From Moniliella sp. 'wahieum' (taxonomy: Eukaryota; Basidiomycota; Moniliellomycetes; Moniliellales; Moniliellaceae), in contig RSEE01000018.1 in the NCBI GenBank assembly GCA_003971905.1, positions 124,001-188,000 on the forward strand: a stretch of 64,000 nt of DNA, given 5' to 3'. Below are positions 6,565 to 64,000 of this stretch, in pieces (within the stretch, counting starts at the first letter, position 1; each line of letters starts with the position of its first letter). Both the position numbers and the translations under genes were made by a program. The notes under the pieces are model-generated. The model had not been told where the DNA came from. It made no database searches and saw nothing but the letters and a program-made list of their open reading frames with translations.

Positions 6565-8815
6565 GGCCGACGCAGGAAAGAGCAACGGCAGGCTGCGTCC
6601 GCAGCTCTGTCTGTCTGCAGAGTGGTGGTGGGAACGCAGCCGAACCGGCCGCGGCCGGCGGCTGCTGCCGTGCGCCTCCACCTGCCCGCGAAAGCCACCG
6701 CACCCGCACCGCACCCGTGCCGCGCCCGGCGCCCGCCGCACCCACGCACCGCGCCGCACTCCTGCCCCGCGCCTCCTTGCAGCCTGTCTCCCTGCAGCTG
6801 CCTCCCTGCAGCTGCCTCCCTGCAGCCTCGGCCACGCGTGACTAGTGACTGTCAACGGTGGGCCGCCGCCAACCGCGAGGCCGCCACTACTCACTGGATG
6901 CTGCTGCTGCCAGGACCAGGAGCAGGACGCGCTGACGCGTGACACTGGAGCCCAGCGTGCGATCCGAGGTACGCGCCTGGCGCCGCGCCCGTCTGCCAGG
7001 CTCCCGGCGGTCTGCCGCAGCCACGCCACCGCACGGCAGCGCACTGCGTGCGCTGGCCTGGGTGACCGATGGCCAGGCATGCGGCGTGACGCGGACGCAT
7101 CACACGTTCGGGGGGTCCGCGCTCGGCCGTCGGCGCGCCCAGCGGCTGACATGCATGACAGGCACCCGGGCTTGTGCTTGTGCTTGTGCTTGTGCTTGTG
7201 CTTGTGCTTGTGGCTCCCCGCTGCCGCCGTGCTGCAGGAGCGCGTGGGCCTGGCGGGGAGCGCTCAGGCTGAGCGCTGAGCAGAGACGCGTGACGTGGTT
7301 TCTTTGTGGATTTTTCCTGGGCTGTCGCATGCAGCTTGCAGGCCGCCCAGCGCAGCCTGGCGATCGGGCAGGCTGCGTGTTCTGGGGTCTGGGCCGCCCA
7401 CGCTGCATCACATGTCACATGTCACACGTCACCCAGGGGCCTTGGCCCACATCACCCACCGGCGCGCACGTGCAGCATCGCCCTCCTTCCGAATCCCTAT
7501 TGAATCGCCACGCCCGCCCACATCCGCACCCGCCGGCGGGCTGCGTCCGGACGACGTCAGAGGCCTCTGGGTGCTCAGTCAGCGCCTGCCACCACGCATC
7601 CGCCGCACCCATGCCGAACCACAGCCCTCCCATTCACCAATTCATCCCCCAGGCGCATCATGCCGGCCCCGCCCCCGCGCGGGATGGGTGTGGGGGACGG
7701 GTGTGAGAACGCTGAGCGTACTGAGTACTGAACGTTGAATGACGTTGATGCCACGCCGCCACCGCCGCTCTGACGTCGCAGCCTGAGGCCTGCCGTATCC
7801 GCCGTCTCAGCCCTCCGCCTCCGCCCTCAGCTTGGCCGCCGAGGTGAGTGGGTCAGTGCGGACCTCAGCACTCCTCAGGCTGAGTCGGAGTTGCACTCAA
7901 CCTCCAGCGTTTGACGTCCAACGTCCATTGTGTTCACCCTCCTGATGGTCACAACGACGAGCGCACAGGTGGGACGTTCCAGGGCCACAATGTCTCCACC
8001 TCCGCCTCCCGATCCCCCCGCCCGGCCGCCGCAGGGATCGAGGGTATCCGGCCTAGGGATAAGTCCTCGATGAGGTCGATGAGGGCCGCCGCTAGCTTGA
8101 CGCCACAGGGAGCAGCGCAATGCAGGATCCATGCCGGTGCGTGAGGTGGCGGGCGTGCATCAGCAGCTGTAGAACTGCTGCGGTGGAATGCAATTCACCC
8201 TTCTTTTCCTGCCTCGATCGATATCTGCCGTCCCCACCCTCAAGCCTAAGTCTACTAGTAGTACCGAGGGCCCGTTCCGTCACATGCTCCATCCCAGCCT
8301 CGGCGAGGATGAATAATACTAGAGAACTAGAGACCCTTGCTTGCTCTTGCAGCCACTGTCACAGTCGTTGTCCAAAGTCCAAATCCTGTTTCCTGACTGC
8401 TGTCAACTAGTCACTGCTTCCGCCCCTTTCGTCCTGCCACCTTCCCATATGGCATACGGCTCGACAGGTATGGCCAGTAAGGTCATTCAACAACTTCTAC
8501 CTTGAGCTTCAGTGTGCTTCGCACGCCGCTCTCGTCCTTCTATACCACGCATTCCACCCCCCTTTTCCCACACGCCGAGGGGGGGCAGCACAGTTGAAGA
8601 CTAGACAATATAATGCCACATTGGACTCTACCGAATTGACCCTAGGAACCCCACGCGCCAACGCATCCTCTCAGTTCCACCATGCAACCAACCAGCCAAC
8701 CAGACAACCAGACAACCAGAGAGAAGAGGGCAATCCAAAACGCAGAGACAACGATCTATTCAGAGCAGGCCAACCGAGGCCGTCGGGGAGTTAGGAAGGG
8801 GCAGTCGTAATGGAA
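6565..8815. other. Intergenic region with tandem CTTGTG repeat and heptad tracts
   Basis: Upstream region of the ArfGAP gene and 3' flank of the Boi/Pob1-like gene. It holds a hexamer run of GCTTGT at 7170-7212, a CTGCAG-rich run at 6780-6830, two palindromic-heptad tracts (7408-7431 and 7718-7738) and a CCAACGT pair at about 7917-7928. Open frames here are GC-rich shadows; no gene supported. Confidence 0.6.
7170..7212. repeat. GCTTGT hexanucleotide microsatellite
   Basis: Seven consecutive units of GCTTGT on the plus strand. Confidence 0.95.
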
Positions 8816-12761: not shown

Positions 12762-13716
12762 GGTGGCGGGGGAGGGAGAGGGGGAGGAGGTAGAAGGGAG
12801 CAGGCTAGCGTGTGTTTGCTGGGCGGAGAACGTGCCGTTGAAGGTTGAAGCTTCTGCTGGCGCTCAGGCCTGACCTCAGGCTGAGTGCTTGGAGGCAGAG
12901 CAGCTGAGCTGAGCACGGGCTGACCCTGCTGACCCTGCGCACACTCAGCGCTCAGGCTCAGGGCTCAGGCGCTCAGGCCTCAGGAACGCAGTATCACGCT
13001 TCTCACCACATGTGTCATGCACTCCGCATCAGATGCATGCGTGATTGCACGAGTAATTACGAGCGTGTGTGCCCTGCTGCCCCAATCGGGTAGTCAGCCA
13101 GCACGCACAGCGGCAGTGCTTGTAGTGCTCTGACGTCACACATCGTTTGCGATAGCGTGCGAACATTGAATATCGAATGGGCTTGCAAGAGAAACTCGCA
13201 TCAGCATTCCGGACTCAAGCCAATCAAGCCATGGAGACCATGGTTGGTGGTGGTGCAGAGCAGCATCCGTCAAAAAGAGAGAAGGGACGACGGGAAGAGA
13301 GCAAGGGGATGTCAAGAAGGGGAGGTCAAGCGGTTAACGCTTAATAGCGGTGCAAGGGTCGGTGAAGCAGTCGGACAGGCGACAAACTATAATTATACGC
13401 GATGAAGATCTGTGGCAGAGAGAAGCTCCGGAGGGAATCAAAAGGCGAGGGCAGAGCAGAGAGAGAAGCAGCGAGTTAGGTGAGCAGTCAGGGTGCAATT
13501 TAAGCCAAAAGGTGGGGGAAATGAGACAGGCAACGGATGCCGTTGAGTCTCTGATACTGAAAATCCTAGACCAGTTCCGACGGAGCCGAAGGGAGGGGTT
13601 AGAGTTGTTGCCTGCTGGGCCCTTCTTGCATGAGGAAGCGTAATTCACGCATGGCACGGACCCGTGCATAAGCCGTCTTGAAAGGGCTTCCTGAAGGTCA
13701 GACCAACCGTTAGCCT
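12762..13716. other. Boi/Pob1 upstream region with TCA-palindrome tract
   Basis: Holds the promoter of the Boi/Pob1-like gene and a repeat-rich block (12850-12985) dominated by CTCAGG and CTGAGC words, including TCA-GCGC and TCA-GGCC heptads. The rest up to 13716 has no supported gene; a 128-codon minus frame at 13334-13720 looks like 3' flank of the next gene. Confidence 0.5.
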
Positions 13717-20934: not shown

Positions 20935-23484
20935 GATCGATGGATAAGATGTGGGATCAATGGATCTCTGGCCTCAAGGCGGGTGCGAATCGCTCGGTTC
21001 TCGTTCAAAGGCCACGAGTACGTGGCTGGCAATGGGACAAAGGGGTTGGGCAATCGTGAGAGTAGCGAAAGGAAACACGAGCAAAGAATCAGCAAAGAGA
21101 ACCGACGGTTATATACTGACTGGAAGACATGTATGGATCGGGCGATATATGAACGCCGTTTGTGCAGGTCGCTCTCGACATTGGTTTTCGATGTCTTCTG
21201 TATCAAATGTGACGTCAAATGCGATGCATGACTGGCTGGCTTGGGGCGCGATGACGCGACAGCAGGCAACAGCGCCTTCGCCTGCATCAGCACAAGGCGT
21301 AACCTGGTGCATGAGACACGGTGCTACGCGTTGTACACATTTGACCCATATGTGCATTAGATTTATGTGGTCCTGTCTTGGCGTCAGCTCCGGGATCTAA
21401 GCGTCGCATCTTCCCTGCTTAAATCTTAACGCTCTCTTGAAGGTTCGGCTTCAAGGCTGAGCTTCAGCCTCAGCTTCCGTCCGCCTCACAGGGTTCCTAC
21501 TGTGATTAATGATTGGGCTTAGTATGCACTTGCACTATGCTGTTTGGAACGAGCGCAGGGCAGCAAGAGGACCTACTGTGATGATGAGACCTGTGGACTC
21601 GAGGGCAATGCATCGCACTGGTGTGGTGGTGGTCTAACCCAAGTCAGCACCGCCTACAGATGAGGAACATCAAGCAGTCCTCATGCATCAGTCGTGCCAT
21701 GAGACCTGAGGCCGGGAGTCTCTATAGGCTGCTGCTAAGGTGACGCCGGTGACGGGTGACGGATTGCTTGACATGATGCATGATGTATGATGGGACGTGC
21801 GACGGCTTGCGGCCGCGTGTTGCGATGTAAGATGTGTAGTATGGTGGCGCCCTGGTCGCTACGGTGGCCAGTGCGTGCGAGCTTCATGGACCCGATAACT
21901 GGATTACTCATTACTCAGCTGAGTACTCATTGCCTCTGCAGGTATGCAACTCTCAGAACGACTTTCTGCTCGATGGTCATCCGGTCATCGGTCCTCATCG
22001 ATCATCGATCATTAATCATCGACCATCTAACGTCTAACATCGATCAAAAAGCCACAGCTGATGGCCTCATAGATCAGCTGGGACGCCGGCTGTCCGGGTG
22101 CCTCCTTTTGTATGACCCTTGTCCATCCTGTGTGTCTCGATCGCAGGTTGCTCGGGATGCTCTTGGGACTGCATTATCGAAATCTGAGCTGACTAAGACT
22201 TGTCTTGGGCAAATGGGTTGCCACAGGGGGAACCCACTAATTATACACTTTTTTTTCACCCTGTGTATAGTGCTACTTAAACATGCAAAAAGCACGCCAG
22301 GGAACCCTCTTGACATTCTCGCTGTAGCGAGCACCGCTCTGTGTTGGTATCTAGAATTGGAAGGACCCGTGAACGTCGTCGCGAACGTTGGATTTGATTG
22401 ACATGTGACGCCTATATCGATAGATCTCGACGTAGAGATCAACGCCCCAACGAAGCACTCGCTTGTTCCGTGCCCGATGCCTGCAGAGGCCCAAGGTCTG
22501 AGGAAGGCCCAAGCGCTGAGAGGGGCCTGAGGGCCTAAGCCTGACGGCGCAGAGGACTGGGGCTCTGATATCCGATGTCGCTGAGGGCCTTTATTAGGGC
22601 TGAGGGCCTCTCTGTGAAGCTTTGTTGCCTCTCTAGCTGAGATGCTGAGGACATTTATATCGGGCTGAGACGCTGAGGATGCTGAGGCCTGAGGAGCCTC
22701 CAACTGGGGTGGCTGGGGGGTTGATCTTCGTCAGCTGGTCACCTGCGCCGGTTACCGGTGAAGGCCCATGCCCTATATTAGGGCTTAGCGCTAAGGCTTA
22801 GCGTTATAGAAGCATCTCGGACAGAGTACGATGATAGTGGGGCGTCCGGAGGACGATGTATCATGGTGAGTAGTACGATGATTCCGGTGTGGCCTGTGAT
22901 GTGGAACCTGGTCTGCCCCCTCATCCGTCCGTAGTCTCCGGTCATGCACATGCATTTTGGTCCTGGGACGCTCGAGTCAAAAGCTGCCTGGCAACGTCCT
23001 TTCCACTGGTCTCGAGAGAGTCACGTATACTCGAGTCACCTCCATGTGTTGGGGTTCAACGTTCACTAAGAACAAACAAAGGGACCAACGAAAATCCTTG
23101 ACGAGAGAAAGAGTCAAGGTTGGAATGGCAGGTTATAGGCCCGACCCTGGGGGGGGCAGGGAAAGAGGACAGATGTTGGAAGAGACTTTTGCGGGCCAAA
23201 TTACGACGCCAAAGGTGTGGGAGAGGAATAGAACATCAAAGGTGCTGAAGGAGGAGTGGAATGGAGGATGTGGTTCTGAGGAGAGGTACAGGAGGCTATG
23301 AGAAGGGTAGGGCCTTATATAGACGAGGGTACCGCGGAGCTGAGGAAGCTTCCGGGCGGATAAGAGGGGGGTAATGACTATCACGCGGATGTGCGTGATT
23401 GGGCATCGCCCCACAAAAGGATGCCACATATTCTCCTGTTTGCTATACTCAGAGGGTTGTGTGGCTGGCTGTGTACCATATACC
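20935..23484. other. Gene-free 2.5 kb, heptad and GGCCTGA repeats
   Basis: Upstream region of the MFS gene and beyond. A perfect heptad tract sits at 21995-22025. A block of CTGAGG/GGCCTGAG words spans 22480-22700, and a TTA-GCGC-TAA palindrome lies at about 22788-22797. Base composition is less GC-rich than around the genes. No coding sequence recognised. Confidence 0.5.
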
Positions 23485-23735
23485 TGCTAGAGTGCGACTG
23501 GGAGCACTCGCGATCCTAGGATCAGCTGCGAAGCAGCCTTCAGACAAGGCATGAAGGCAAAGTGGGAGCCACAAGTCTTCAAGCAACGTCTGAAGGGAAG
23601 GAGAAAGGAGAGAGAGAAGGGAGTGAGAGCGAGCAGGGGTGCGCGGCCTGCGAGCGGAACGCTTCCGACTCGGCTGGCGAGCGTCACCGATCCATTGAGG
23701 GCCCCGCAGGAGAAACCCTAGCAGTACCTCTAACA
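23485..23735. repeat. 250-bp direct repeat, copy A (LTR-like)
   Basis: Begins TGCTAGAGTGCGACT and ends CTCTAACA, so it has TG...CA termini inside a short imperfect inverted repeat (TGCTAGAG with CTCTAACA). Copy B at 27191-27443 matches over its whole length with a few substitutions and scattered one-base gaps. The interior is a purine-rich AAGGAGAAAGGAGAG stretch. These are the hallmarks of a long terminal repeat, but the expected tRNA primer site and a target duplication were not found. Confidence 0.85.
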
Positions 23736-23739
23736 GCCC

Positions 23740-26700
23740 CCTCGGTGAGCTCGCCAGACACAGGTGTGGTGGTCCTCGGCCAAGGGCCAAGGCATGGATG
23801 AAAGAAGAAGAAAGGATGTCTCCAGCGCCTCTGGTCAAAAAGTGAAAGGAAAAAAATTGGCAAGCGATGTTGCAAAGTCGAGGGTAAGAGAAACAGTAGA
23901 TTCAACGCATGGAGGTAAGGAGGAAGCGTAGAAAGTCACAGAGGTCATTCAACTGGAAGTATAAACAATGTTCCAAGTCGAAACAGGATGTTCAGTGAGT
24001 ATGAGGGAGGAAAGTAGAAGTCATAGAGGTCGATTCAACTTGGAGGTAGAAAAAACATGTTCCAAGTCGAAAGAGTATGTTGAACGTGTGCAGGTAAGGA
24101 AGTTTTGAAAGTCATAGAGGTCGATTCTCAACTTGGAGATATAGACAACATATGCCAAGTCGAACCGAAGCCAAAGTCGAACAGAAAACGTAAGTTGGAG
24201 GTCGAGAGTAGAGCCATAGAAGGCAATTCAACTGGAAAAGAAACCAACAAGTCAAGTGGCACAGTCATGAAAAGAGAAAAAGGACCAAATTCGGAACAGA
24301 AAAAAGATGACGACTGGTTCAACCGCCACGCGGACCAGCGTCAACGATGGTTCAAAAGTTACCTTGTAGGTGATCAGTACACTTCGCAAGCAGCACCGCT
24401 GGCAAAGGAGCGACCAAAGTCTTCCGGGCCCGGGTCAGGGATGAAAGTGCAACGGCTGCCCATGTAGCGTACACTAGAGACAGTGCCTCCCGTCTTGAGA
24501 CAGCCAAAGAAACTCCCACTTGGGCCAGAAAGGAAACCATAGCCGCCCATGCAGCCCACATAGTTAACAGCACCGCCAATCTTGGAACGGTCAAGGTACC
24601 CGCGCCGGGTCAGGTAGGAAACGGCCAAACCATTAGTGTAACCTAAACCGTCAACAGCGCCACTGCTCTTGAGACGGTCGAAAGTATCCCCCGCCCGGGT
24701 CAAGTAGAAAATTGCCACAACCATTAGTGTAGCCGAAACTGTCAACAGTAGCACTGGTCTTGGGACGGTCAAGTACCCCCCGCCGTGTCAAAGAGGAAAC
24801 TGCCACCGCTGTCAGTGTGGCCCAAACTGTCAACAGCAGCACTGGTCTTGGGACGGCCAAAGTACCCCCCGCCCAGGTCAGATAGGAAAGTGCCACCGCT
24901 TCCCGTGTAGCCCAAAACATAAACGGTGCCCCCGATCGTGGATCGGTCAAAGTACCACTGGTCTGAGTCAGGTAAGAAACTGCCACAGCCGCCCGTGTAG
25001 CCCAATCGTAAACGGCGCCTGTGATCTTGGAACGATCAAAATACCACCCGCCCGGGTCAGATAGGAAGCCGTCAGAACCGCCCATCATGTTGGGTGCAAT
25101 GGGAGAGCGAGACGTTAAAGCAGAGCACACAAGAGGGCCAACGAGTCCGCACATTACCTCCCTAGTAACCAAGTAAGAAGGGCAGCTAGGGTGGATTGCG
25201 TCGGTGGGCCCGGCCTTGGGACCTCAGATCAGTATCAATATTCTCTTCCGACATGACAATGTGTGCCTGAGGATCGGTACCGTGCCGTACGCAATTTGGA
25301 ACAGGCAGGCCTGCCAACACATGGTGAGATCGCTGAAAAGGGTGGGTGGGAGGGAACAGTAAGGCAAGGTGGTCCGGGCGCGTAAATGCATGTGCGGAAG
25401 GACGGGGGTAGCCCCCCTTTTTTCCCGCATCCCGTCGATGGCCGCAAGCTCTGACACAGCGGCTCGCCTTCCCTGCGTATGGTGCTAGGCCGACCATGCA
25501 AAGCTTGTCCGCAAGCTCGGCGACCGTTAATTCTCCATGTCCAGCCGCCAGGTCGACACCGCCACAGCCATCGGCCCCCTTGATCGGACGCTCGGCCAAT
25601 AGCAGCGCACGACATCGGTCCCCCTTGGTCAGGCACCAGGCCGACACGTCCACACGCCATCGGCCCCCCTTTGTCAGGCGCTGGCCAATGCACCACACGC
25701 TATCGGCCCCCTTTGTCAGGCGCTTGGCCAATGGCACCACACGCGGTCGGCCCCCTTTGTCGGGCGCCTGGCCAATAGCACCTCACGCTATCGGCCCCCC
25801 TTGGTCGGGTGCCTGATGGACGTCAATGGGAACCGGGCCACCAAGCGCCTGATCGGGTGCCTGATCCTGAGCCACGATAGCAACTGACATGGGCCTGGTG
25901 GAATGCACCTCCCGTGACGCATAGTCACCACCCGCTGGGGGTAAGTCCGGGCCGACAGATGCCATCGCAGCCACAGGATCCGGCTTGGCGATAGCAGCTG
26001 GCGTGGACCTGGGGGATGCCCCCAGTGACGCATGATCACCACCCGCTGGGGGGTAATCCGGACCAACAGATGCCATCGCAACCGCTGGAACCTGAGCAGC
26101 AACAGCAACTGACCCCTCCTGGAGCGAATGCGCCCCGACGTCGTATGGACTTGATCCGCGGTCGTGAATCAGGGTCGACGGATTCCATCGGAGCCACAAG
26201 GTCATGAACCACGACAGCAGGTGACATGGACTCGGAGGAATGTGCTTCCGACGGTATACAGGCACCATGTTCTGTGAGTAAGTTCGGGCCTACAGACGGC
26301 ATTGCTGCAACAGGGTCATACCCAACAGCAGCTAACTCAGCCCCGGACTTGGGACTAGCGGAATGCATCGTCAGTAAATCAGGACCAACGCGTGGCATCT
26401 TGCCCAGAGGCTCATGGGCGACAGCAACTGGCTCACACGCGGGCGAAGCAAGGTGTCCGCTGGCTCGCTGGCACCACGAGCCGGGAAAGGCTCGTCAACG
26501 AGTGGTGCTGCAGCCAGAGGTATACCAGCACGATCACGAGGGCAATCCACATGCTTGGGGCCAGACCGACCACAACTTGGGGCTCTCTGTACAGTTCGCT
26601 GGGTCGAGGAGCATGTCACGCATGGCACGACGCTTCAGAGCGACACGCTTGCGAATTGTTTGGAAGCCTGATCGATCTCGTACAGTTTCCAAGCAAGCCG

Positions 26701-27777
26701 CACATCACGGAGACACTGGTCAGTTGCCACGCAAGTCATCAATGCTAGAGAAGCAGTGGTTCCTGGTGTAAAAGGCATAGGCAACATAGAAGTCGGTCGG
26801 TGTGAGCAAGACGTCTTCGCCGCCATGGTCCTTGCTGTAGTTGGCAACGAGATTAGCCACCAAGGAGTCCTTGTCTGCCACTGTCGAACCAGGGAGCGGG
26901 GAGGCGATGCCACTCATCGGCATACCCCAGTGGCGAATGGTAGGAATGACTTCAGGATGAACTGGCAGCGACGTCCTCGTCAACGTCCGAAAGAACGGCG
27001 TTCAGTTTAGCCCAAGCATAAGTCGTGCCTTGATGCGAAAATCCGGCCACTTCGCTGTCGTGCCAGGGGCTATCCCGACTTGGGAGTTGGGGTCAAACTC
27101 GCCACGACGAACATACGCTTCCACAATGTCGCGAGGCGAGTAAACCGGGTGCGCAGAATGCGCAGAGGCAGAGATAAGGGCGACATAACCTGCTAGAGTG
27201 CGACTTGGGAGCACTCGCGAGCCTATGGATCAGCTGCGAAGCAGCCTTCAGACAAGGCGTGAAGGCAAAGTGGTGAGCCACAAGTCTTCAAGCAACGTCT
27301 GAAGGGAAGGAGAAGGAGAGAGAGAGGGAGATGGAGCGAGCAGGGCGTGCGCGGCCTGCGAGCGGAACGCTTCCGCTCAGCTAGGCGAGCGTCACCGATC
27401 CATTGAGGGCCGCGCAGGAGAACCCTAGCAGTACCCTCTAACAGGAGGGGGCTGGTGACCACGGACTATGGTAAGTACTGTTTCCAAGGTTGGTTCAAGC
27501 GCACGGGTGTGGGTGTCGTGGGCGTGAACCCTGAGCACAGTCGTGGTTGTACACCGAGCTGTAGTGTCTGTGGTTCGCCATGATTGCGGTAGCCACAGCA
27601 CCGGCTAAAGTATACTCCACCACATTCTGGTCTGCATCTGCCGAGATAGCCGCTGATCGGGCTCGCTCGTTGTGGGGGCAAGAAAACATCTGCCTCCGAT
27701 CCATGGGTCCGGAACGAAGCGGTATAGGGATGTCGAAGCGATTAATGGGATCATAGTAGAATGTATTGAACTCGTCC
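23740..27777 (-). CDS. Repeat-rich protein gene, interrupted by direct repeat B
   Basis: Coding-like sequence on the minus strand, function unknown. An ATG at 27777 opens MDEFNTFYYDPINRFDIPIP and runs through QNVVEYTLAGAVATAIMANH to about 27490. Repeat B (27191-27443) then intervenes. After it, in the same orientation: YSPRDIVEAYVRRGEFDPNS, AKWPDFRIKARLMLGLN, IRHWGMPMSGIASPLPG, LVANYSKDHGGEDVLL, then AWKLYEIDQASKQFASVSLK and MRDMLLDPANCTES. Three kinds of tandem repeat follow (42-, 15- and 30-residue units) with a link ELTVAELADKLCMVGLAPYA. No reverse transcriptase, integrase or transposase motif was found. It may be a non-autonomous retroelement or a host gene with an inserted solo repeat. 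Exon structure is unresolved, so the limits are approximate. Confidence 0.4.
23925..24200. repeat. About 85-bp tandem repeat, 3-4 imperfect copies
   Basis: Units contain GTCATAGAGGTCGATTCAAC, TTGGAGGTA and then ATGTTCCAAGTCGAAA. Copies start near 23934, 24014 and 24106, with a decayed fourth near 24205. Confidence 0.8.
24380..25110 (-). repeat. About 90-bp tandem repeat coding for a 30-residue unit
   Basis: Seven or eight imperfect units. Read on the minus strand, the best-conserved frame gives a unit like YFDRSKIGGTVYVLGYTG followed by GSGGTFLSDLGGG; other frames stay open for long runs because of shared composition. One-base gaps make the frame hop between units. The plus strand is also partly open, so the coding strand is not certain; minus is preferred because the flanking coding-like sequence is on that strand. 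Confidence 0.7.
25575..25810 (-). repeat. 45-bp minisatellite coding for a 15-residue unit
   Basis: Five or six units. On the minus strand the unit reads like GQAPDQGGPMACGAI. Observed units are 42-44 bases, which fits a 45-base in-frame unit that has lost single bases. Confidence 0.75.
25815..26400 (-). repeat. Tandem repeat coding for a 37-42-residue unit
   Basis: At least four units on the minus strand, each opening with VAAMASVGPDLPPAGGDYAS or a variant (AVAMASVGPDYPPAGGDHAS, VAAMPSVGPNLLTEHGA, LVAPMESVDPDSR) and closing with a Ser/Ala/Val-rich segment ending in a D or P. Confidence 0.75.
27191..27443. repeat. 250-bp direct repeat, copy B (LTR-like)
   Basis: Same orientation as copy A at 23485-23735, 3.45 kb away. 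Same TG...CA ends. Both copies are preceded by a similar CATA(T)ACC and differ after the end (GGAGGG here, GCCCCC at copy A). No 5-bp duplication flanks either copy or the pair. Confidence 0.85.
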
Positions 27778-33039: not shown

Positions 33040-33655
33040 CAATCGTCGAGGTAGGGTAGATCAAAGCCAAGTCGGGCCTCAGGATTGCTCTCGAGGGGGG
33101 GGGGGGGGTCTCCGAACAGAAGGGACGCTGACAGTGCCCGCTAGGTAGTACCCCTCCCATCTACCGAGCAACTGGCAAGACAACGCTCCTGGCAACCCCC
33201 CGGTGGCCCCTTGGGCATTCAGTAGTTCGGAACCAGTACTCAGTCTGAGTTTTCAGTCCTGCCACGTCTCCTTCTCCGGCTGCATTTGGGCTTCATCTGG
33301 CTTGACCGCGGTGGCAGTGTAACTAATGCGCAAGGCGACAAGATGTGGTCATTCTGCGGGCCCGCTACACAACGCTACTAGTTGGATGTGGCGGCAGTGG
33401 GCCCGGCAAAACCCATTCATTAATCATTCCCTGGAGATTTTTTTGGACTGCCAGCCATGGAATCGTAACATGTAACGAGGTCCCAAGAACGTTCCAACGT
33501 TCAACGTCTCCGTTCAACGTTTCGGCGTTCCGTTCGGCACGGCCTGCGATGTGCATGTGACACACGACACGTTCCGTCTGCTACAGTATGCATTCCCACA
33601 CGCGCCGTTCGCTCCTCCCCCTGCGCCTGGACGCGGTACGTGTCTCGCGCCAGTC
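33040..33655. other. NPR2 3' flank with G14 run and ACGT heptads
   Basis: Contains a run of 14 G (33095-33108) and TCA/CCA-spaced ACGT motifs at 33495-33530. No gene seen. Confidence 0.5.
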
Positions 33656-34003
33656 CCAGCGTCCAGCGTCCACGTCCAGCGTCCAGCGTCCAGCGTCCAG
33701 CGTCCAGCGTCCAGCGTCCAGCGTCCAGCGTCCAGCGTCCAGCGTCCAGCGTCCAGCGTCCAGCGTCCAGCGTCCAGCGTCCAGCGTCCAGCGTCCAGCG
33801 TCCAGCGTCCAGCGTCCAGCGTCCAGCGTCCAGCGTCCAGCGTCCAGCGTCCAGCGTCCAGCGCCAGCGTCCAGCGTCCAGAGCGTCCAGCGTCCAGCGT
33901 CCAGCGTCCAGCGTCCAGCGTCCAGCGTCCAGCGTCCAGCGTCCAGCGTCCAGCGTCCAGCGTCCAGCGTCCAGCGTCCAGCGTCCAGCGTCCAGCGTCC
34001 AGC
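33656..34003. repeat. 7-bp satellite array, CCAGCGT unit
   Basis: About 49 almost perfect head-to-tail copies of CCAGCGT. Phase slips occur near 33862 (a lost base pair of units) and 33880 (GAGCGT). Because 7 is not a multiple of 3, all frames remain open on both strands, which produces artificial proteins. Confidence 0.98.
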
Positions 34004-34048
34004 TGCGAAGCTCGTAAATGTTCGGATGGACTACGTTGCGTTCCACGT

Positions 34049-34072
34049 TCACGCGTCACGCGTCACGCGTCA
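34049..34072. repeat. TCA-CGCG heptad tract
   Basis: Three units of TCA followed by CGCG, preceded by an ACGT tetramer in phase (34045-34048). Confidence 0.95.
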
Positions 34073-34195
34073 CGTTTCCCCCCGGGGGGCCGTACCACCA
34101 AACTGCGACACCTAAGCTTGGCTTCCTGTGCGTACTGCGTTGCGTTCCTTCTAGAGTAGCTACCACGCGCCACGCATGGAACGTAGGGTCCCCAA

Positions 34196-34287
34196 CGTCC
34201 AACGTCCAACGTCCAACGTCCAACGTCCAACGTCCAACGTCCAACGTCCAACGTCCAACGTCCAACGTCCAACGTCCAACGTCCAAC
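34196..34287. repeat. 7-bp satellite array, CCAACGT unit
   Basis: Thirteen perfect head-to-tail copies of CCAACGT, 190 bases from the CCAGCGT array and differing from it by one base per unit. Here the tetramer after CCA is the palindrome ACGT. Confidence 0.98.
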
Positions 34288-35599
34288 CCAGCGTTCGATG
34301 AAACGTGGGATCTCAGGAGAACTGCACCCTGCACCAGCCCAGCCCGCGGATGCAGGATGGCCCAAGCTCCAACCTGCTCTATCCAACACACTACCGGTTG
34401 GGGCCATGCCCCATGCACCATGAGATCTGGCAAGCTGTTTGGTCGCCCGAGGTTCGTTCGCAGAGCCCAAACGAACGGTCATTAACATTGGGAGAGAGCG
34501 AGCGGATCAAGCTCCAAGGATAGTCGATAGCGCCAGGAGAATGCTACTTGGTGGCAGACAGGACGGTGTATACAATCGCACTCAGTACTCAACACTCAAC
34601 GTTGAGTGTTCAACCCCGAAAGCAACGCATCAAACCAACGAACGCGAGGGTACTAGTTACGCTTCGAGACAGGTGCGGGCCGGACAGGAGCCGACGAGGC
34701 AGAGGGCTTGCCGCCGCACCAAAGCAACCAAGGTAGGACCGCACAAGCATCTGAACCGAGTGTCGAACCGCGTCCTTCGGGGCACCTGGGCGCCCATACG
34801 CGCACAATGCATCACGAGTCAAGGGCGCGGCGAGGGACGGGAAAAGGAGGGAGAGGTCCAAGTCGGAGCCGCCGATCGAGGCCAGTGGCAGCCAGTGCAA
34901 AGGAGCGCTGTTGACGTCCACGTGTTCACGGGGGAAGGCAACCGAAACCGGCATGCAGACCCACTGAGCTGGCGACCGACGACGGAGAGAGTGCACCAAG
35001 GTAGAGTGTCTCGTAGTGCTGGCGTCGTAGGATGGGGAAGAGCCCAGGCCTGTGGGAGAGGCAGGGGTGTGCGTACGAGCACGAGACGCTGGACAATGTG
35101 GTGACACACCAAGAGGCAAGAGAAGAGAACAAGGCTAAATCAAATGAGACGAGAATGGGGTCGTGGTAGACAACGGGATGGAGCAACAGGGAGAAGAGGG
35201 GCAAAGAGTATGTGGTGGTTGGGAGGAGGGAGGAGGAGGAGGGAGGAGGGAGGGGGGAGGGGGTTCACTTGTATCCATCCCAAATGCACAACGCATCAAG
35301 GGAAGACCCGGAACGCATATCACACACCGACAGGGGCGCTACGTCGGTTTGCCAAGTTCTGGGCGGGCGAACCGAGCCTGAGGGCCCCATGCCAACCTAC
35401 CTGTCTCATGCCAAAACGGGAGGGAAAGCAGAACAGGATGGAAGTGGAAACAACGAGTGGAACAAGAGCGATGTGGACCAAGAGGAAGCAACGCAGGTAG
35501 GCGTGAGTACAAACGCTGGGCGAGGGGAGGGGAGAGGATGAAAAAGCAAGAGAAAAAAAGGGGGGTATACGCGCAAGTCCAACCCAACTCTGCCCCATT
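34288..35599. other. Gene-free interval
   Basis: Contains a striking heptad tract at 34582-34612 and a GGAGGA-rich stretch at 35222-35265. Minus-strand frames between 34610 and 35643 are open but lack family features; the part next to 35600 is probably the 3' untranslated region of the following gene. Confidence 0.5.
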
Positions 35600-36747: not shown

Positions 36748-39700
36748 GGTGGGGGTGGTGCTGGGGGGGGTGGTGCTGGTGGGGGTGATGCTGGTGGTGG
36801 CTGAAAGAAAAGACAACAGACAGGAGGAGGAGGAATGCACCAAGAGGCGGTGGAGAAGGCAGGCGCGGCGAGGCGCGGGAAATGAGTGATGTGAGACGGG
36901 GATTTGTAGTGGCAGGGGTGCAGCGGCTGGAGTGGCCAAGTGCGGGAGGCAGGGCAGGTGCTGGCTGGTATTTAGGCGCCGGAAACGCAGGGCAGCGCAG
37001 CGCCAGCCACGGCGCGTGCGAGCAAAGGCGACGCAGCGCTAATAATAAACCCGCTCCCGTCGCAGCCAGCGGCGCGGGGCAACACTGGCCCGCCGCGGCC
37101 TGCGAGCCCAGCCGATCAGTCGGGTACTCAGTACAGAGTGAGGAGGACTCAGTCCACGACTCAGTCGGGCACTCGTCCGCAGACGCGCCCTCGCCCAGCA
37201 CGCTGCCCCCTCCTCCGTGCGGCAGCAGCCGCAGCCGCAGCGCCGCGCTCACTCATCGATGAGCCTCATCCACCGCCCTCCGCGCCCTCCTCCCTCGCGT
37301 CCACGCCAGTACATACAACCGGCAGCCCTCAACGTGCCACGCTACCACGTCCCCACCCATCCACCGGCCACCCGCAACGTCCCTCCCTGCCAACGCCCAG
37401 CGCCAGCACCCACCACCCACCGCCCAACCCGCGCTCCTCTCGCCTCGCCTCGCCCTTGCCTGCCTGCTATCCTCCTCTCGGCCGCGGCTGGCCACAGGGG
37501 TGTGATGACATGATGGGAGTGCTGCGCATGGCATCCTGGCGCCAGGGATGGAGCCAGCGTCCGAATTGCAGCGCCAAGCTCCACGCTCCCAGCTGCAAGA
37601 CGCTCCGCGGGGCCTGCGTTGTTCAGTACGTTCATGCATCATGCATGCGTTTCATCACGCCCCATGCTCAGTACTCAGTCTGAGTAGTCACCGATCGCAT
37701 GTCCCTAGTCACTGATCCGCATCATGCATCACGTCAATCACTTGGCAGAACCCAGAATCAGGAATCACCACACCGACCGAAGCGCACCACTGACTGCTGC
37801 AGGGGCAAGCGGCATGGTGCATGTCATGCACGACATGCATGACGCATGACGCATGCGGGAGAATATCGGAATGCGCGCCAGCACATGGCACATGGTCTGC
37901 ATGCGGCAGAAGTTCTGGACAGAACTTCCCCGAGCAGCTGGCGCTGCGCGTTTAGAAGGTATTAGTACTTGGCGGGCTGCGGCACATGGCGGCAAATCTT
38001 TCAAGTTGCAGGTGCCACGCTGGCAAATTATTACTGGGCTGGCACACAACCCCAGACCGCTGCATTCGCATGTCTGTCCGCCATCACATGTCACATGCCG
38101 TGTCACACGTCACAGCCGCCACCCAACCCCCAGCAGGATTGGGATTGGGATGGATTGGCCGATGGTCCATAACCGCAATCCCCCCACGCGCCACGCTTCT
38201 CCCGTGCTTCTCCCGCTCCTCCGCCACCGAAAGAAACAAGGCATTCCTGGTACGCGCTCCGCTCGCCTTCCTATCACCAGTCTCAACCATGGCCCCACCC
38301 TGTCACATGTCAATGTCACCGCCGTCTCTCCAGATCCGCCAGGCGCCAGGCCTCTCCCTGCCCCTCTCCTCCGGCCTCGTGTGTTCTTCCCCAAGTCTGG
38401 TCCACCGCCAGCGTCATGCTCACCGGTCACCGGTCACCGGTCACCGGGGTCACCTAACCGCCGGTCCCGGTCACCGGGTCACCACGGCATGCCTAGCTGC
38501 AGCTACATAGAGCCCATCCAATTTATCCGAGACTCCCCATTTCGTTACGTACTTTTTGTTCCACGCGGTGGATACGGAATGCTTCATGCGCTGAGCCACC
38601 ACAGGCCACTGTGCGGAAAGCCATGCTCAGCTCAGCCTCAGGTCTCCTTAGACTTAGTACTGAGACTCAGTACTCAGTGTGCTAACAGAAAGCCATGCGT
38701 CCCGCCCGGGTCCAACGCCACCCGTCTCTTCCCCCCCAATAAAACCAGCCATTCAAATCGACCCCCCAAACCACCCCTCGCCCCCCAATTTGCAGCGCCA
38801 GATGGTCAGCCTGGCATATCTTGGCAGTGGCAGGCCCAGCGCCTACGCGACGCTCTGCCTGCAGCGCCGCCCCAGGTCAACCATGCAGCCAGCCAGCCGA
38901 ATTTTGTTCCGACAGACACCGGAAAAATAAAAAATAAAACACCAGATCGATGCAATGCTTTTTTTGTGTTCACTAGTCACTAGTCACTCTAGTCACTACG
39001 TTCATTTGCGGCACCCCCGCGCCACCACCACGGAAATATAATCTCTGCTGCACTGCACCTTTGCACCCCCCACGCTGAGGGTAATCGGTAACCGGTAACG
39101 TGCGGATAACGTGTTGGCGTGGTTATAGACGGTAGCATAGTTAACAGGAAGCTTGAAACGGTGCAGGTTGTGCATGCTACACTATAGGCTATACACTCGG
39201 CTACAGTGCCCCGGCACCCGTTTCTCTCCCCTCGTGACAGACCCCTGCTGCTCGAACAGCTCCAGACCCACAGCCCACACCCTCCTACGCACCGATTGCG
39301 TTCAACATATTTGCCACCTGTGCCCTCCCGTCTCCCAGCTCCATGCTGAGGCGGCGGCTCGGCCTGAGCGCTGCGCCTCAGCCCTGAGGCTCAGGAGCGC
39401 GCGCAGCCGAGACGACATACCCCCTGCCGACCACAACGCCTGTCTCTGGTGGGAGAGTATGGGTTAGATCGAGGAGATGTCAAAAGTAGCGTGGAACGTT
39501 GAACATACATACAGCTCATCGAACAGGCCTCAGGAGAAAGCGCTAAATTTTGTACCCAGCAGATGCAAACGTTTCGAGTATACGTTTTCACCTCGGCACC
39601 GCCACGCCGACAACCTGCTCCGGGCACTCCAGCAGAGGCCGGCGGGCCATCGAAATATAGATTGTCAGCTTCAAGCTTCAAGCTTCAAGTCCGTAGTGGA

Positions 39701-43869: not shown

Positions 43870-45960
43870 CAGACAGGGAGCTTGGCGACATGAATATTGA
43901 ATGTCAAACCCAAAGTGAGGTAGTGGCGTCCCTTCTCGGTGACATGCGACATGGAATGCAAGCTTGGCAGAAGGTGGCGGACTGGGGGCCGCGATGGTGT
44001 GGGGGCGGGCGGATGGAGCTTCTACAACCTTTCATTGGGACTTACGCCAGAATGCACTGCTCTGATGCAGGGGAAGCACATTTGTCAGTAACCTGGAAGC
44101 TTCAACCTCTTGGTGCATCCCATCGAGGGCGATGGTCGATGGTAGGCGATGGTGGCAAGGGCGGTGCCGGTGATGCCGATGATGACGATGACATCAATAG
44201 CAGGTGTTGGCTAGACCGCGAGAAGACGGCCAGGGGCCGGAGGAAGCCGTCGCCCACTGAATGGCTAATGGCGGGCGACCGGGGATCGTGCGGACACGGG
44301 GATGACCTGCTGCCACACCGGTCAGGTGCGGGGCGTCGGACGAGGGGGGGGCAACCGGTTGGCGCGCTGCCCGCGCTGAGCGCCGAGGCGCTGAGGGGGC
44401 AGGGCAGCTGCCAAGCCTGCATGTCCAGATACTGGCCTGGTGCGGGTATGACTGTCTCACAAAGATCTCAGACGGGGCCAGCGCGATGTCGACAGCGCAG
44501 TTCGTGAAACCGGCAGAAGGCACCGCGAAATTTACAGCGCAACACTAAGTATGGCGCGCGCCGCAGCGGCAGTGCCTGAGTGCCCAGGCTGAGCTCGGGT
44601 GGCCAAGCGCCCAAGCAGGCTTAACGTCCAGCGCCCTCCGCCCGTATATCCGCAACGCAAGGCACGGCTGGGCGATGCATAGTGGCGCCGTGCCCCGCAT
44701 GTGCGTGCGGCGGCTGTATTGGTTCTGCGACAGCTGGCCACACGAACGTCGAACCCTTGTGACAAAAACGTAAGGACGCCCGCCCGGCACTACGGGGCAA
44801 CCTCCTCACACACACACCATGTGCCAGCTGTGCGAGCTGCTTGCAGGCTCTCAGCGTCCCAGGGCCTTCCTCGTGCCTGCCCATCGACCATCCCCTGCGG
44901 CACCCGCGCTATTTGCGCGTGCGCGTGACAGCTGCGGTGCTGGCTTCCTGGCCCAGCACCCAGCGCACCCCGTTCGCCAGCTTCAAGCTTCAATATTCAA
45001 TGCTCTACGAGGGCGTTGTCAGGTGGACGGTTGGTCCGTTCGTCGGCCTGACCTGCTTTGGGAGGAGGAAGGGAGGAAGTACGTGTACGCCGCACCCTCG
45101 AGCCAACACCGCCCTCGCCTGTTTATGTATTATCGACGAACGATAATCGATAATCGATCATCGATAATCGAGATAATCGACTATCAGTCCAAGCTATCCA
45201 AACCTGACGGGCGGCTTGGTGGGCAGGCAGTTGGCACTGCACTCCTGAGGCTCAGCGGCTGAGCGCAGCCCGGGCGTGGTGGCGATAGTCGATAGCCGCC
45301 AAACCAACCGATACCACTAAGCCGGACCAAAGTTCGCACGGGGCTACTGACGGGAAAACGGAGAAGGACGCGGGTAGGTGGCCGCCGCCCTGCCCCTTCT
45401 TGGGCGGCAAGCACCCTGCCTTGCTCCGCCGCGTGCGATTGAGGGGGGGGCAATCGACCCGTGCCTTGGGCACCGAGCTTGTGTGCGTCGGTGTGGTCCT
45501 GGTGCGCCCCCTGGTGCTGCGTCGTCCTGCGACACGGCGTGTGTGCCTGCATGCTGGGCGCCACGCGTCACACACCCACTCATCATCGTGCATCGTCACG
45601 GGTGGGCGCTGCCTGGGGGGCAGCCTGGGGCAGCCGGCAGCGCAAAAAGCGCTCTGCGTTCGACAGGAACGGCAGGCAACCCCAACGCGCCGCCCCCCGT
45701 CTGCGCTCGGCAGGCACACGCGGGCACCCCTTGCTGATTTCAGATCTCAGTTCTCAGATCGCAGGTCTCAGGCTGGGCGCCTGACCTGGGCGCACCCCCC
45801 CCCACCCACCGCGCAAGCCCGAGGCATGGATGGGACAGCGGCGCGGTGCGGCGGAAAAAAATCAAGAGGGGCGGAACTGTGCGAAGAGTGGGTTTCGCGC
45901 GGCCACACTGCTGCTGTGCCTGCGCTGGCGCGTGTGGGCGCTGCTCCTCCCCAGTGTGGC
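43870..45960. other. Upstream region of permease gene, no gene seen
   Basis: Contains heptad tracts at 44979-44999, 45144-45180 and 45740-45760. Open frames here are GC-rich shadows. A 699-codon frame that ends in the permease starts in this region, but only the part from 46096 is supported. Confidence 0.5.
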
Positions 45961-54196: not shown

Positions 54197-57100
54197 GTTA
54201 TGGTTATGGCCCTTCCTCGCGGTCCACAGGATGCCGGATGCTGACTCATCTACCTTAGGTAAAATGAGCATCCGTCGGGGTGCACCTTTTCGTTCAAAAT
54301 GTACTAATCTATCGATGCATATTGGCAGTTATCCCTCTGTGTGGTGTTCAACGCGCTGCCTCTTTGAAGCGTGCTAATCGCTACTCATACATGGGGTACT
54401 CCTCATTGTCTATCCGGAAATATCATCCTGATGGGGACAAGCGGATTGCTGCTGATGCACTGATGGCTGATGTGACGAGGTTATGAATGCAGCTCCAAAA
54501 AACCGAACAGGAGGTGGTGGGAAAGGGCTGGCTTTCTATTAGCAGATGATACTAACGATGCCCTTCGGGCTCGACCCCAGAGAACAGCAACACAAGCCAC
54601 TGATTAAGGAAGGCCAATGGTGAACATCGTTCAATATATATGAGCGCTATGAGGGCTAAGCTTCAGTCAAGATCACAGACCATAACGGAAGGAGTTTGGG
54701 CAACAGAAAAGACCGTAGGTCAACATCAAGACCACGATGGAGATTGTCTATGTCGCGTATGGGCCATGTAGGGCATACGGGGAAGAGAAAGCAGAAAGAT
54801 GGATGAATAGTGACTGCAAGAGGATGCACCCCTACTATTGGAGGTCAATACTCAACCCTCCTGATGCGCCCATCCAGACTCATAGTACAGTGGTCAAGCA
54901 CACATAGCTAATCGAAAATGCCGGTAACAAGGTTCCGGATAGATATGTGAGGACTACGTACGAAGGGCAAGGCCCACAAGATTGTGCACCAGAAATTTCG
55001 ATTAGCCATGCACCCATACGGAAGACCGGGGTTCGATTCCGCGTCGAGTCACGTTTTCACTCTGTCCACCACTAGTCACTCCGGGTTGCTCCTCTCACAC
55101 CTCCAACTCGCTCAGGGGCGGGCGAAGGCAGGTGCCCGTCTGCCCGCTGCGTGAGGTCGGCCTCTGGGGGCCCTATGGTTGGCGGTGGTGGTGGTGTTAG
55201 CGCTTAGCTGTCCGGCGGGGGTACATGACCTGCATGGTGGGGCTGGTGGTCACTGTATACGTAGGCCAAGGCGCCTTATCGATCACCGGTCACCCTTCAA
55301 CCAACCCCTATTTGACCTCCGAAGCCTCCACTGTGTATACTCCGGCGAACCCCTGTCTCTTTAGCACTGGTGTGGCAGAATGCTTTAGATAGACTTTAGA
55401 GCTTTGGCCACCTCACCTCCTTCTTGATTGCAGTGCTCTACATCTCTCCCAAGGTTCTTCACCCAAATTCTGCGTTCTTCCGGTCTCCTCTGCATTAACA
55501 GGACTAAAACTGCTAGAAGGAAATATGGCGTTTGGAATCCGCCACTTTATTCAACAAGGCAGTATTTCCTTTTCAGGTGCCACAAGCATGCCTTACGCAT
55601 TACGCGTTACGCAGCAATAACCCTTTTCTTGGAGGGCAGGAGCATTCTCCAGCCACTGTAGCTCATCATGCATCTCATGATGATGCAATGCAATACGCCA
55701 TCAACTGCTTGCTCTCTATCTTCTGCAGTACTGATGCACTGATGCAATTGATGGACTGATGGACTGATGCTGAGCGCTGATCGGATACGGAGTACTGATG
55801 TACTGGTGGTACTGATGCAATGCTTGATGCATTTGGAATCCGAGCAAGCACCTGGGCGCTGCTCCACACTGCTCCCTGCTCGCGCTCCTATGCCTGCCCG
55901 ATGTAGATAGCAAAATCGATAGCAATTTGAAGGCGGTGAAGGGTCCAGCCGCCCTGCCCAGCCCTGCCCCGCCTGGACCAGCCCCAAACAATGGCAGCTG
56001 TGGATGTCTCTGTTGTTCCTGTTGATCGTGAGCGCGTCAGCGCCTCGCGCGTCACTCGTAACGTCAGCGATCAGGCCTTTGTGGCTCAGATCTCAGATCC
56101 TCAGAGGCGCTCAGGCGCTCAAGCTTCAAGGCGCGTTCGCCTTCAGACCTTCGCGCTTCTCAGATCTCAGACTGAGATCTCAGCGTCCAAGAAACACGTC
56201 ACCGACAGGGAGTCTGTGGGGGGTTATAGTTACTAGTTACTAGTTACTAACTACTTATCGATGATGGATGTCGATGTAATATGAACAAGTCAAAGCACCG
56301 ACGCCACTCTTCGCGCTACAGCCTGGTACGGCCTGCTATGGCAGGCTATGGTACCAACCCTATGGACATCTGAGGCCCCTCAGGCATCCGGCCCAAGGCC
56401 TCAGGAGGCATGAGCCCCAGGCCTTTAAGCTTTAAGTCTCAACGCCTCTATTGGGGGCTTTTTGGAATTTGATGCAATATTGACGCCTCAACTTACGCTT
56501 GAAGCTTGAAGCTCAAGAGCTTGGGCGTTCCTTGAGCGTTCCTTGAGCGTTCCACGTTCCTTGAGCACTTGGAGCTAGCTTGAAGGGCTTGGAGTGGGAT
56601 GCGTTAAGACCGTGCACGCGGCGAGCACGCGAGTTTGCTTGCGCGTGAGAACGAAGCGCGATTCTGGAAGCGCTGCTGCACAAAGCTACGCACTGCTACA
56701 CTTGCGAGAGCTCCGTCTCGGGTGAGACAGGCTATGCGGCTTGCACAGCAATTAGGGCACACAATAAGGCACGCAATGTAGTATTTACATGTTCCACGTC
56801 ACTAGTTATTCGCTCCGTCCCTTCCACCGCCCCCGGCTCCTATTCGCACCCTCCGGAGAACTACTCTATGCGCGCTTCCCCAACACAGAGAACAACACGC
56901 AACAGCTCCAACAGTCATCGACGTGAATCAGTAATCCCTACTGTTCTACCATGCGTCTTGCGTCTTGCATCAGATGCGCCTGTTCCGCTGCAGGGCGCAG
57001 CACATCCGTCTGAATGGGGACGGGAGTGGGATCGTGAGATGCTGTTAGTTTAGTGTTGAGCGCGTGGGGCATGTGTGGGATACATATGTTCGGACATCTC

Positions 57101-57700: not shown

Positions 57701-57740
57701 CGTGCACCGCCTGCAACAGCTTTCGTAGTCCCCGCCAAGC

Positions 57741-57748: not shown

Positions 57749-57848
57749 AGCCCCTTCAACCCGTTTTCCGTCTTTCCCCACCCACCCCTCCTCTTCCCCA
57801 CCTCCTCTTCCCCACCTCCTCTTTCCGTTCAACTCATCTCTCTGCACA

Positions 57849-58224: not shown

Positions 58225-58585
58225 AGCTGTTCAGCTTACGCCTGGTCATGGCGCGGGCCACTGTTGCGTCTGTCCTGGCCCCGCACCCCCTCCAGTCAGA
58301 GGCTGCAGGCCCAGAACTAGCATAGATGGTCCCATTATTCAATGTGGATTCATATAACCTGTTCTACTTGATCCCGTAGCGTTTGTCTAGAATGCGTCGA
58401 GGCGTGGAAGAAGGTTAGACGTTAGACAGTCCCCATCAGTGTGGTGCAAAGCGCGCGAGTTTACCCCACACGCAGTGGTCTTCTTCGGTTGGAAGTTCCG
58501 CCCGTAATTAATAATTCCGCAGGCTCACGTTTGCGGTGCACGGGTCCCTTGCCTCGCGCCGACAGTAGGCAGCAGTTGGTGCACC
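58225..58585. other. Region between CipC-like gene and SAM50
   Basis: Holds the 3' flank of the CipC-like gene and the SAM50 promoter, both genes pointing right. No TATA box or further gene recognised. Confidence 0.5.
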
Positions 58586-60533: not shown

Positions 60534-60942
60534 TCACGATTCATCGATCATCTCTACTATCGATTTGGAAGACTCGCTGCTTGCCTTAGGATCCCTCGAT
60601 TGCAAAACGGAACATGGTGTATTCATGGAGAGATTGACAATCCCAGGTAGCGAGACGAAACACTCAAAAAAGAGGCGAGGGGGTAGGCTTCAAGATCGAT
60701 CCAAGGATGGCTTACCCAGTGTAGAGAGACGGGAACAGCGAGATAGCATACACACAAAGACAGGCAAGGTACAGAAAACGTATGGGTAGTACAATAGTCG
60801 GGGTGAGTATGTGACAGTAAACGAGGCGAAAGGAGGTACAAAGGTCAAAGGCCAAGTAGTATAACGAATGTGATGAAGTGATGGGGGAGGGTAGGCGTAA
60901 GGTGAGATATTATCAAGATAGGGTGCCTGAAAGGGAGAGAGT
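60534..60942. other. Interval between convergent SAM50 and the next gene
   Basis: Open minus frame 60690-60998 is Tyr/Pro/Ser-rich and lies downstream of the neighbour's stop; probably 3' untranslated sequence of both genes. Confidence 0.45.
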
Positions 60943-63358: not shown

Positions 63359-64000
63359 GGGCAAGAAAAGAGAGATAGACAGACAGACGGGGCGGAGGGA
63401 GGGGGCAAGGAGCGTAGGGCTGGGCGGGATGGAGGAGACGGAGCAGAGGCCAAGACGGCTGAGAAAAGGACAGGGATGCCGGCGCTATCGATGCTATCGG
63501 TGATGCTGATGCGGATGGCGTCGCACGGCTTGGGCGTGGCGCGTGGCTGTGGCCGGGCAGAGCAGGTGGCTTGTCCAGCCTGTCCCCATCGCTGATCGCT
63601 GGCCCTGGCCGTTGATCGGCAGTGGCGCCGAGCGCTGCACGGGGCGCTGCGCTCTGCTGCCGACGGCTCTGTAACTCGCCAGTGCCCGTCTGCCCAGCCC
63701 GACCCCGCGCATCGCATTGGACCTGCAGGCCTGCCTTGTGCCTGACGCGTGTCCCGCACCATGCCAGTGTTCCACGCCCTGTGCGATCACACTGCAGCCA
63801 GCCATCATGCATCTGCATCACACATCACGCCATCAAGCTTCAAGCTTCAAGGTCTCAGGGCACCCGCCCCTCAAGCTGTCATCATGCATCAGACTTTAGG
63901 AGCTTTAGGCGTCATGCATCAGCCACCCTCAGATCCCCACCAGACCGATGCGCCTCCAGAGCCTCAGGGGCCGAGTCAGCTTTGCCAGGGTTTGCCCCTC
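63359..64000. other. Right edge, promoter side and heptad tracts
   Basis: Upstream of the disordered-protein gene. Heptad tract with AGCT at 63833-63849; TGCA-containing words at 63802-63812 and 63881-63889. No gene supported. Confidence 0.5.

Follow-up and report, generated by a model that had tools for sequence, protein, structure and literature searches.

Short palindromic additions are found beside joined or duplicated ends as the P nucleotides seen at V(D)J joints or as the footprints of hAT-type excision, and in CNG trinucleotide repeats the unit is self-complementary around one mismatch and the strand is hairpin-capable. Among the long simple sequence repeats of bacteria, the TAACTGA repeats of Beggiatoaceae and cyanobacteria are described as 7-nt direct repeats that are often intergenic and present in 2 to >40 copies (PMC4679880). 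In vitro, two base pairs at the terminus are enough for human polymerase (Pol) theta to begin stem-loop synthesis, and Pol eta and lambda carry out related reactions (PMC11292364); nascent-strand fold-back has been inferred in rad27-deletion yeast (PMC5677150). Here we describe dispersed heptamer arrays in a 64,000-nucleotide stretch of Moniliella sp. 'wahieum' DNA (contig RSEE01000018.1, C18:124001-188000; hereafter the window) and in the 69.5-Mb, 223-contig assembly that contains it. Arrays on either strand obey TNAxy -> TNAxy(YX TNAxy)k as a rule of insertion, and they change in 7-nt steps, where xy is the dinucleotide 3' of TNA, YX its reverse complement, and the two bases between TNAxy copies are called the filler. 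We propose, at a probability of about 0.5, that they are a genome-wide mutational signature of iterated, self-templated 7-nt insertion at TNA through fold-back of the nascent strand.

The statistics come from a 264-kb sample made up of the window and 20 stretches of 10 kb taken at round coordinates on seven contigs, except where genome-wide counts are given. This sample contains 363 TNAxy-NN-TNAxy duplications on both strands, and in 248 of them the filler is complementary to xy, read in reverse (1/16 expected). Complementary fillers amounted to 106/154 for anchor TGA, 105/148 for TCA, 19/35 for TTA and 18/26 for TAA; CCA gave 31/127, 14 of the 31 belonging to a single array at 34192, GGA was not enriched (5/99), and CAT, TGG and ATG yielded 21, 19 and 18, which are probably at least in part shifted or reverse readings of TNA arrays. 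A genome-wide count was made for xy = CA only, with long arrays entering it several times and the same pattern reversed as control: the predicted filler TG occupied 6,225 of the 8,612 TNACA-NN-TNACA occurrences, against 80/1,546 in the control. An original prediction on this DNA, which had pointed out the spacers and palindromic tetramers, would have fallen if non-palindromic tetramers were equally frequent, and for xy = CA this count favours the palindromes. Both counts also display the relation expected of fold-back, inserted bases reading as the reverse complement of their neighbours. In 142 of the 248 cases the two bases 3' of the second xy were unlike the filler, so simple carry-over from the flank does not account for it.

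The palindrome preference is likewise above chance without reference to the rule, TCA-N4-TCA being palindromic in 102/189 cases versus 5.9% over all trinucleotide pairs; between other equal spacers the figures were 82/164 (TGA), 17/43 (TTA) and 15/38 (TAA), and neither TCA-N6-TCA (2/79) nor TCA-N8-TCA (1/63) showed a comparable excess. The spacing of TCA-TCA pairs peaked at 7. Among exact tracts of period 7 that reached 16 nt or more, 50/94 had a quasi-palindromic unit, compared with 1/69 for period 6, 1/40 for periods 8 to 13 together and 14/62 for period 5. Genome-wide, TCAAGCTTCAAGCTTCA matched 2,270 times and its reversed form 0 times, and four TCA spaced 7 nt apart occurred 6,448 times versus 1,198 for the reversed pattern. 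Perfect palindromes of the types TCA-PAL-TGA and TGA-PAL-TCA were in about fourfold excess, some of them longer than 10 bp (e.g., at window position 34596). Decay of the tracts is visible in a surplus of half-palindromes, 106 versus 63 pairless cases of TCA-N4-TCA (background ratio 0.36 to 0.58).

The 7-nt period, the TNA spacer and the intergenic placement reported in the original prediction were upheld. Eleven of the 12 ranges it quoted contain TNA spacers, palindromic tetramers and 7-nt spacing on rereading, the other one (12945-12982) being spaced by 7, 6, 7, 8 and 7. Four of the 11 are flawed: 38654-38676 consists of two short pieces with opposite spacer sense, the last unit of 38970-38990 is altered, 45144-45180 has two additional bases ahead of its final unit, and the middle tetramer of 45740-45760 is GTTC, which is not palindromic. 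Of the two tetramers reported as missing, AATT was the first tetramer in 1 and TATA in 0 of 217 chains, although TATA was the second tetramer of one chain.

The extent of the tracts defines the inserted unit. Exact tract lengths around TCA-PAL-TCA peaked at 12 nt (35 tracts), with a second peak at 19 nt (12 tracts), that is, at 5+7k, and (left, right) overhangs were (0,2) in 18 and (2,0) in 14. These peaks and the one-sided two-base overhang indicate that the unit is a 5-nt duplication, TNAxy, plus a 2-nt filler, YX. The lone heptamer YXTCAxy was hardly enriched (8.0% versus a median of 6.2%), indicating that the palindrome is the product and not the substrate; it is not a required word, since the insertion makes it from an arbitrary dinucleotide. 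These results bear on ordinary heptamer microsatellite slippage, which would favour hairpin-capable units and start from pre-existing quasi-palindromic heptamers. Arrays in the two copies of the region described below do differ by 7-nt steps, next slots are often degenerate copies, single heptamers are in slight excess, and the unit is self-complementary around one mismatch in the above-mentioned half of the period-7 tracts. Slippage nevertheless predicts as its start the very heptamer that is barely enriched, and a random phase where the tracts end at 5+7k with a one-sided overhang; moreover, the empty sites at 38970 and 56549 have no YX, and GNC, CNG and ANT centres, equal to TNA for hairpins, are unused. 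This explanation is already disfavoured, and we consider it improbable.

Arrays with different tetramers provided a further view of the rule. If TNA grows in both directions, the palindrome at each end of a mixed array should match its own flanking dinucleotide. Twenty-six mixed arrays were gathered, 10 from the window and sample and 16 from 20 short hand-picked loci, these being chosen from the listed hits mostly for their differing tetramers while the flanks were still unseen. The left tetramer matched the left flank in 17/26 and the right one the right flank in 18/26, with both matching in 13/26, compared with 2/26 and 2/26 in a crossed control pairing each flank with the palindrome of the opposite end. 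By origin, the 10 window and sample arrays gave 4 left and 7 right matches, and the 16 picked arrays 13 and 11. The two sides of an array are thus independent. The tetramer follows the adjoining dinucleotide, and this leaves the reading of the tracts as a code unsupported.

The 248 rule-matching duplications merge into 149 loci, 43 of them in the window (from 72 exact 12-mers), which extrapolates to about 39,000 loci in the genome. Counting each array once per strand, events per 1,000 TNAxy sites were 11.8 for TCA, 11.8 for TGA, 6.0 for TTA and 5.2 for TAA; by dinucleotide, they reached 23.3 for AG, 18.8 for TG, 14.3 for TC and 6.6 for TT, and fell to 2.3, 1.1 and 0 for the weak stems AT, AA and TA. 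Stem strength matters for the event rate. Of the 131 open reading frames (ORFs) of at least 150 codons in the window, 40 were scanned with Pfam, and one with a below-cut-off DUF5892 match inside the CCAGCGT repeat (33476-34156) was excluded from the supported set. The Pfam-supported ORFs span 8,821 bases and contain a single window locus of the 43, where about 6 would be expected, so the reported avoidance of supported coding sequence was borne out; this scarcity is expected, since 7-nt insertions shift the frame. The lone coding locus, 60541-60552, sits outside the domain match.

Intergenic placement would also suit a selected family of protein-binding sites, such as a dimer reading TGA/TCA, which had been suggested in the form TGA-N4-TCA. 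The constant bases of the sites are limited to the T and A of TNA, short of the conserved contacts that a binding protein would leave, and the flanking bases of the 264-kb sample showed no wider consensus beyond faint traces that may be decayed neighbouring units; with the tetramer following the adjoining dinucleotide, this leaves the proposal unsupported and very improbable. Nothing points to a function.

A colinear second copy of the region is present on another contig (C21:195195-218066), its matching pieces being 87-96% identical. Three C21 pieces were compared, and substitution divergence, measured on the first two, was 7.3% (335/4,614 aligned bases); two diverged haplotypes or homeologs, of a hybrid or diploid, are apparently combined in the assembly. 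Gaps between the copies (n = 86) were of 1 nt in 30 cases, 2 nt in 15, 3 nt in 8, 4 nt in 3, 5 nt in 5, 6 nt in 3 and 7 nt in 8, with no more than 3 for any remaining length; the distribution thus has one peak at 1-3 nt and a second at 7 nt. Empty sites whose flank differs from at least one filler were found in C21 as TCACT|ACG, TTACG|CA and GGAAC|GC; at 56914 it is C21 that has an additional unit, though the flank there is already the same as the filler. At 37836 the copies differ by 7 nt, with a tetramer, CGCA, that is not palindromic; the differences at 55674, 56075, 56257 and 57151 are messy, and insertions of 10 and 13 nt also occur. Since there are two copies only, a 7-nt difference could also be a loss, which weighs against our proposal; the rule across sites favours gain.

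Copies of long terminal repeats (LTRs) were considered as a clock for gain and dropped, the events being too few. For a 161-bp LTR, 18 aligned rows (two of which duplicate the same copies) showed no 7-nt change, and among 22 copies of an 854-bp LTR a 7-nt duplication was clean in one case (L057, anchor GGA) and irregular in another (L061). No TNA-palindrome-TNA chain was present in the 184-bp and 854-bp LTR copies examined. LTR-type elements with 5-bp target duplications lie at L017:3064-8507, L024:2862-6499 and L026:8975-9828; the terminal repeats measure about 161 and 184 bp, beside the 854-bp repeat.

The fold-back that we propose would proceed as follows. A growing 3' end that had copied ...abTNA would fold back so that its terminal A faced the T across the one-base N, and would copy two bases (b'a') off its own strand, forming a mini-hairpin of 7 nt, ab[TNA]b'a', whose stem has 2 bp and whose loop is TNA. 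The primer end, now at the foot of the hairpin, would occupy the position before ab, and the template abTNA would be copied again to give abTNA-b'a'-abTNA, read on the other strand as TNAxy-YX-TNAxy. Repeated cycles would lengthen the array, and neither a prior palindrome nor microhomology would be needed. The 7-nt length, the palindrome, the one-sided overhang, the iteration and the weakness of AT-only stems follow from this model without added assumptions. The tracts would then be neutral scars, purged by selection solely where a frameshift is harmful; of the break-repair scar offered in the original prediction as one option, the idea of a scar survives. More tentatively, the lineage may possess DNA-synthesis machinery, dedicated or altered, by which such minimal snap-back hairpins are written at TNA sites across the nuclear genome.

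Several observations weigh against this proposal. Another filler is carried by 115 of the 363 duplications, part of them probably through decay. GC-only dinucleotides, at 6-9 events per 1,000 sites, stay below mixed ones. Only 3 of the 8 7-nt gaps between the copies were judged to fit the rule (38419, 56547 and 56914), the remaining ones being a non-palindromic unit or a messy alignment, and two 7-nt candidates have GGA instead of TNA as anchor (56549 and LTR copy L057). There are also insertions of 9, 10 and 13 nt that look templated. The complement flip TCA-CATG-TGA-CA (TCACATGTGACA) occurs 146 times genome-wide, some loci being counted on both strands, while the transition form TCA-CATG-TTA-CA (TCACATGTTACA) occurs only 46 times; this surplus of the flip hints at strand inversion in some events. 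Finally, fold-back alone leaves the choice of TNA over GNC, CNG and ANT unaccounted for, and the DNA energy parameters used are identical for all triloops and thus uninformative on the preference.

The insertions of other sizes lead to the least unlikely of the rivals, in which breaks are repaired by templated end joining (snap-back or strand-switch by a theta-, eta- or lambda-like polymerase) and replication slippage has no part. Inverted fillers of other sizes are in weaker excess, TNAxy-NN-YX-TNAxy reaching 27/120 versus 7.5 expected and those with a 6-nt loop 19/58 versus 3.6, and the 10- and 13-nt insertions between the locus copies would agree with such repair. End joining usually gives mixed outcomes, and the fixed 7-nt product, the lack of deletion and the high density found here are unlike them. 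We regard this rival as unlikely.

A slightly less probable alternative is a staggered cut at TNA by a transposase or other nuclease, leaving 5-nt TNAxy ends that are filled in; one end would then close into a hairpin, whose opening two bases from the tip would leave two P nucleotides, YX, between the TNAxy copies. Formally, its product is the one observed, a target duplication of 5 bp to which two palindromic nucleotides are added, and TNA or TNA-like targets are known for IS1031-type and Harbinger elements. Yet only 2 of the 363 fillers could be explained solely from the TNA side versus 248 from the xy side, TNA has no fixed place in the 5-bp duplications of the LTR elements examined, and tight iteration, with a TNA array of up to 44 nt, is not expected of rare excisions. 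The profile of the Harbinger-type transposase, DDE_Tnp_4, had no match genome-wide, its control being positive; KDZ, the only other transposase profile searched, had none either, its controls also being silent. The DDE_Tnp_4 result, which does not exclude other transposases, likewise leaves unsupported the earlier suggestion of a mobile seed.

Two other routes were rejected. Palindrome correction after a symmetric target duplication of 7 bp calls for non-palindromic k=1 cases with both flanks matching, and these were few, with 3 classed as 'none' and 5 as 'half'; over all flank types, palindromic k=1 cases numbered 142. An opposite-strand switch with return at TNA predicts TN'A in the second copy, a minority form.

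The arrays and related features of the window are collected in Table 1.

Table 1. Heptamer arrays and related sites in the window, with their state in the C21 copy where compared.
Feature	Position	Strand	Remarks
TCA CATG TCA CATG TCA CA	7408..7426	+	two inserted units (5+7+7 nt)
Unit of mixed array TGA GTAC TGA ACGT TGA	7720..7731	-	chain begins at 7722 on +
TCA TCGA array running on into TTAA slot	21995..22012	+	
CCAGCGT heptamer variable number tandem repeat, ~50 copies	33656..34003	+	GCGT non-palindromic; adjoins TCACGCG and CCAACGT arrays
TCA CGCG array, 3 units, 26 nt	34049..34074	+	C21 copy (L158): 2 units
CCA ACGT array, 13.7 copies	34192..34287	+	C21 copy shorter by six units
TCA TGCA TCA TGCA	37632..37646	+	
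TCACA TG TCACA	38084..38095	+	in both locus copies
TCA CCGG array	38420..38447	+	C21 copy shorter by one 7-nt unit
TCACT-AG-TCACT-AG-TCACT-CTAG-TCACT then ACG	38970..38997	+	units 7, 7, 9 nt; C21 empty site TCACT-ACG
TAA CCGG TAA unit	39087..39098	-	C21 copy 5 nt longer
AGCT TCA AGCT TCA AGCT TCA AG	39667..39689	+	C21 copy longer
TAA/TCA TCGA array	45141..45158	+	
TTACG-CA-TTACG-CG-TTACG then CAGC	55593..55611	+	of the fillers, CG is the complement and CA the same as the flank; C21: single TTACG, then CAGC
TTA CTAG array	56227..56249	+	C21 copy has it too
TCA AGCT array (TGA AGCT on +)	56497..56513	-	
GGAAC-GT-GGAAC then GC, rule with anchor GGA	56549..56560	-	C21 empty site GGAAC-GC
TCA AGCT TCA AGCT TCA AG, 19 nt	63833..63851	+	

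Among other features, a repeat of about 110 bp at 54901-55012 has more than 30 genome matches listed and no counterpart at the C21 locus, and direct repeats about 260 bp long, which are 93% alike and lie 3.7 kb apart, flank tandem minisatellites of 44-111 bp at 23477-27444, perhaps as an LTR element. Pfam domains in the window ORFs comprise NPR2, Arf, ArfGAP, PH, SAM, amino-acid permease and Omp85-type; the best named match of the permease is from Tilletiaria anomala (64% identity), the next named ones being often from smut-lineage fungi. An Rfam scan of the window gave no match at gathering scores.

Public prokaryote and viral contigs were fetched by array seed (CATG, 56 and 16 stretches; AGCT, 39; CCGG, 1, a locus kept outside the counts). 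They contain single-heptamer arrays of CATG or AGCT type, but other TCA-N4-TCA in these loci are mostly non-palindromic: in TCACATG-seeded loci palindromes made up 7/188 in Prevotella-like contigs, 0/16 in Omnitrophota, 4/84 in others and 3/10 in Streptomyces, the last too small to judge, and in viral loci 3/68, with 7/187 in the AGCT-seeded set. The filler test gave 26/167 for Prevotella-like contigs, above 1/16, but 20 of the 26 were AT-only TATA runs, and 6/146 for the viral AGCT set. By record title, 34 of the 56 prokaryote stretches with TCACATG arrays were Prevotella-like or related Bacteroidales, many from rumen, and CTTGAAG arrays were seen in 39 stretches of viral contigs.

The birth of tandem repeats from unique sequence is an open question, as slippage presupposes a repeat. 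Here birth and growth obey a simple rule that is legible in thousands of copies and testable in the laboratory. If our proposal is true, the arrays record, naturally and to the base, fold-back priming in its smallest form, and they are a homology-free, de novo source of heptamer repeats; a fold-back of two base pairs would prime synthesis at a frequency that can reshape a genome, and its signature could be sought in further species. No description of the TNA rule was found among the literature matches listed, as judged from titles and abstract openings with subscription journals mostly outside, which does not show its absence from print.

Compared with known systems, P nucleotides and hAT footprints share the short palindromic additions, whereas the present ones are one-sided and of fixed length, with no element or recombinase found. 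Unlike CNG repeats, the unit has 7 nt, its tetramer is free and the sites are dispersed (149 loci in 264 kb). The bacterial heptanucleotide repeats have in common with these arrays that they are 7-nt direct repeats, often intergenic, but they use one or a few fixed units, and the part of that report considered here mentions no self-templated rule. With Pol theta stem-loop extension the likeness lies in snap-back priming from two terminal pairs, a proposed source of inverted repeats; those reactions, as far as the available sections go, were in vitro with varied outcomes, and the TNA rule and iterated heptamers were not encountered in them (PMC11292364). In rad27-deletion yeast, as here, the nascent strand would copy itself into palindromes; existing quasi-palindromes were corrected or lengthened there (21 events), whereas the arrays of Moniliella seem to start from an armless TNA and mostly gain 7 nt (PMC5677150).

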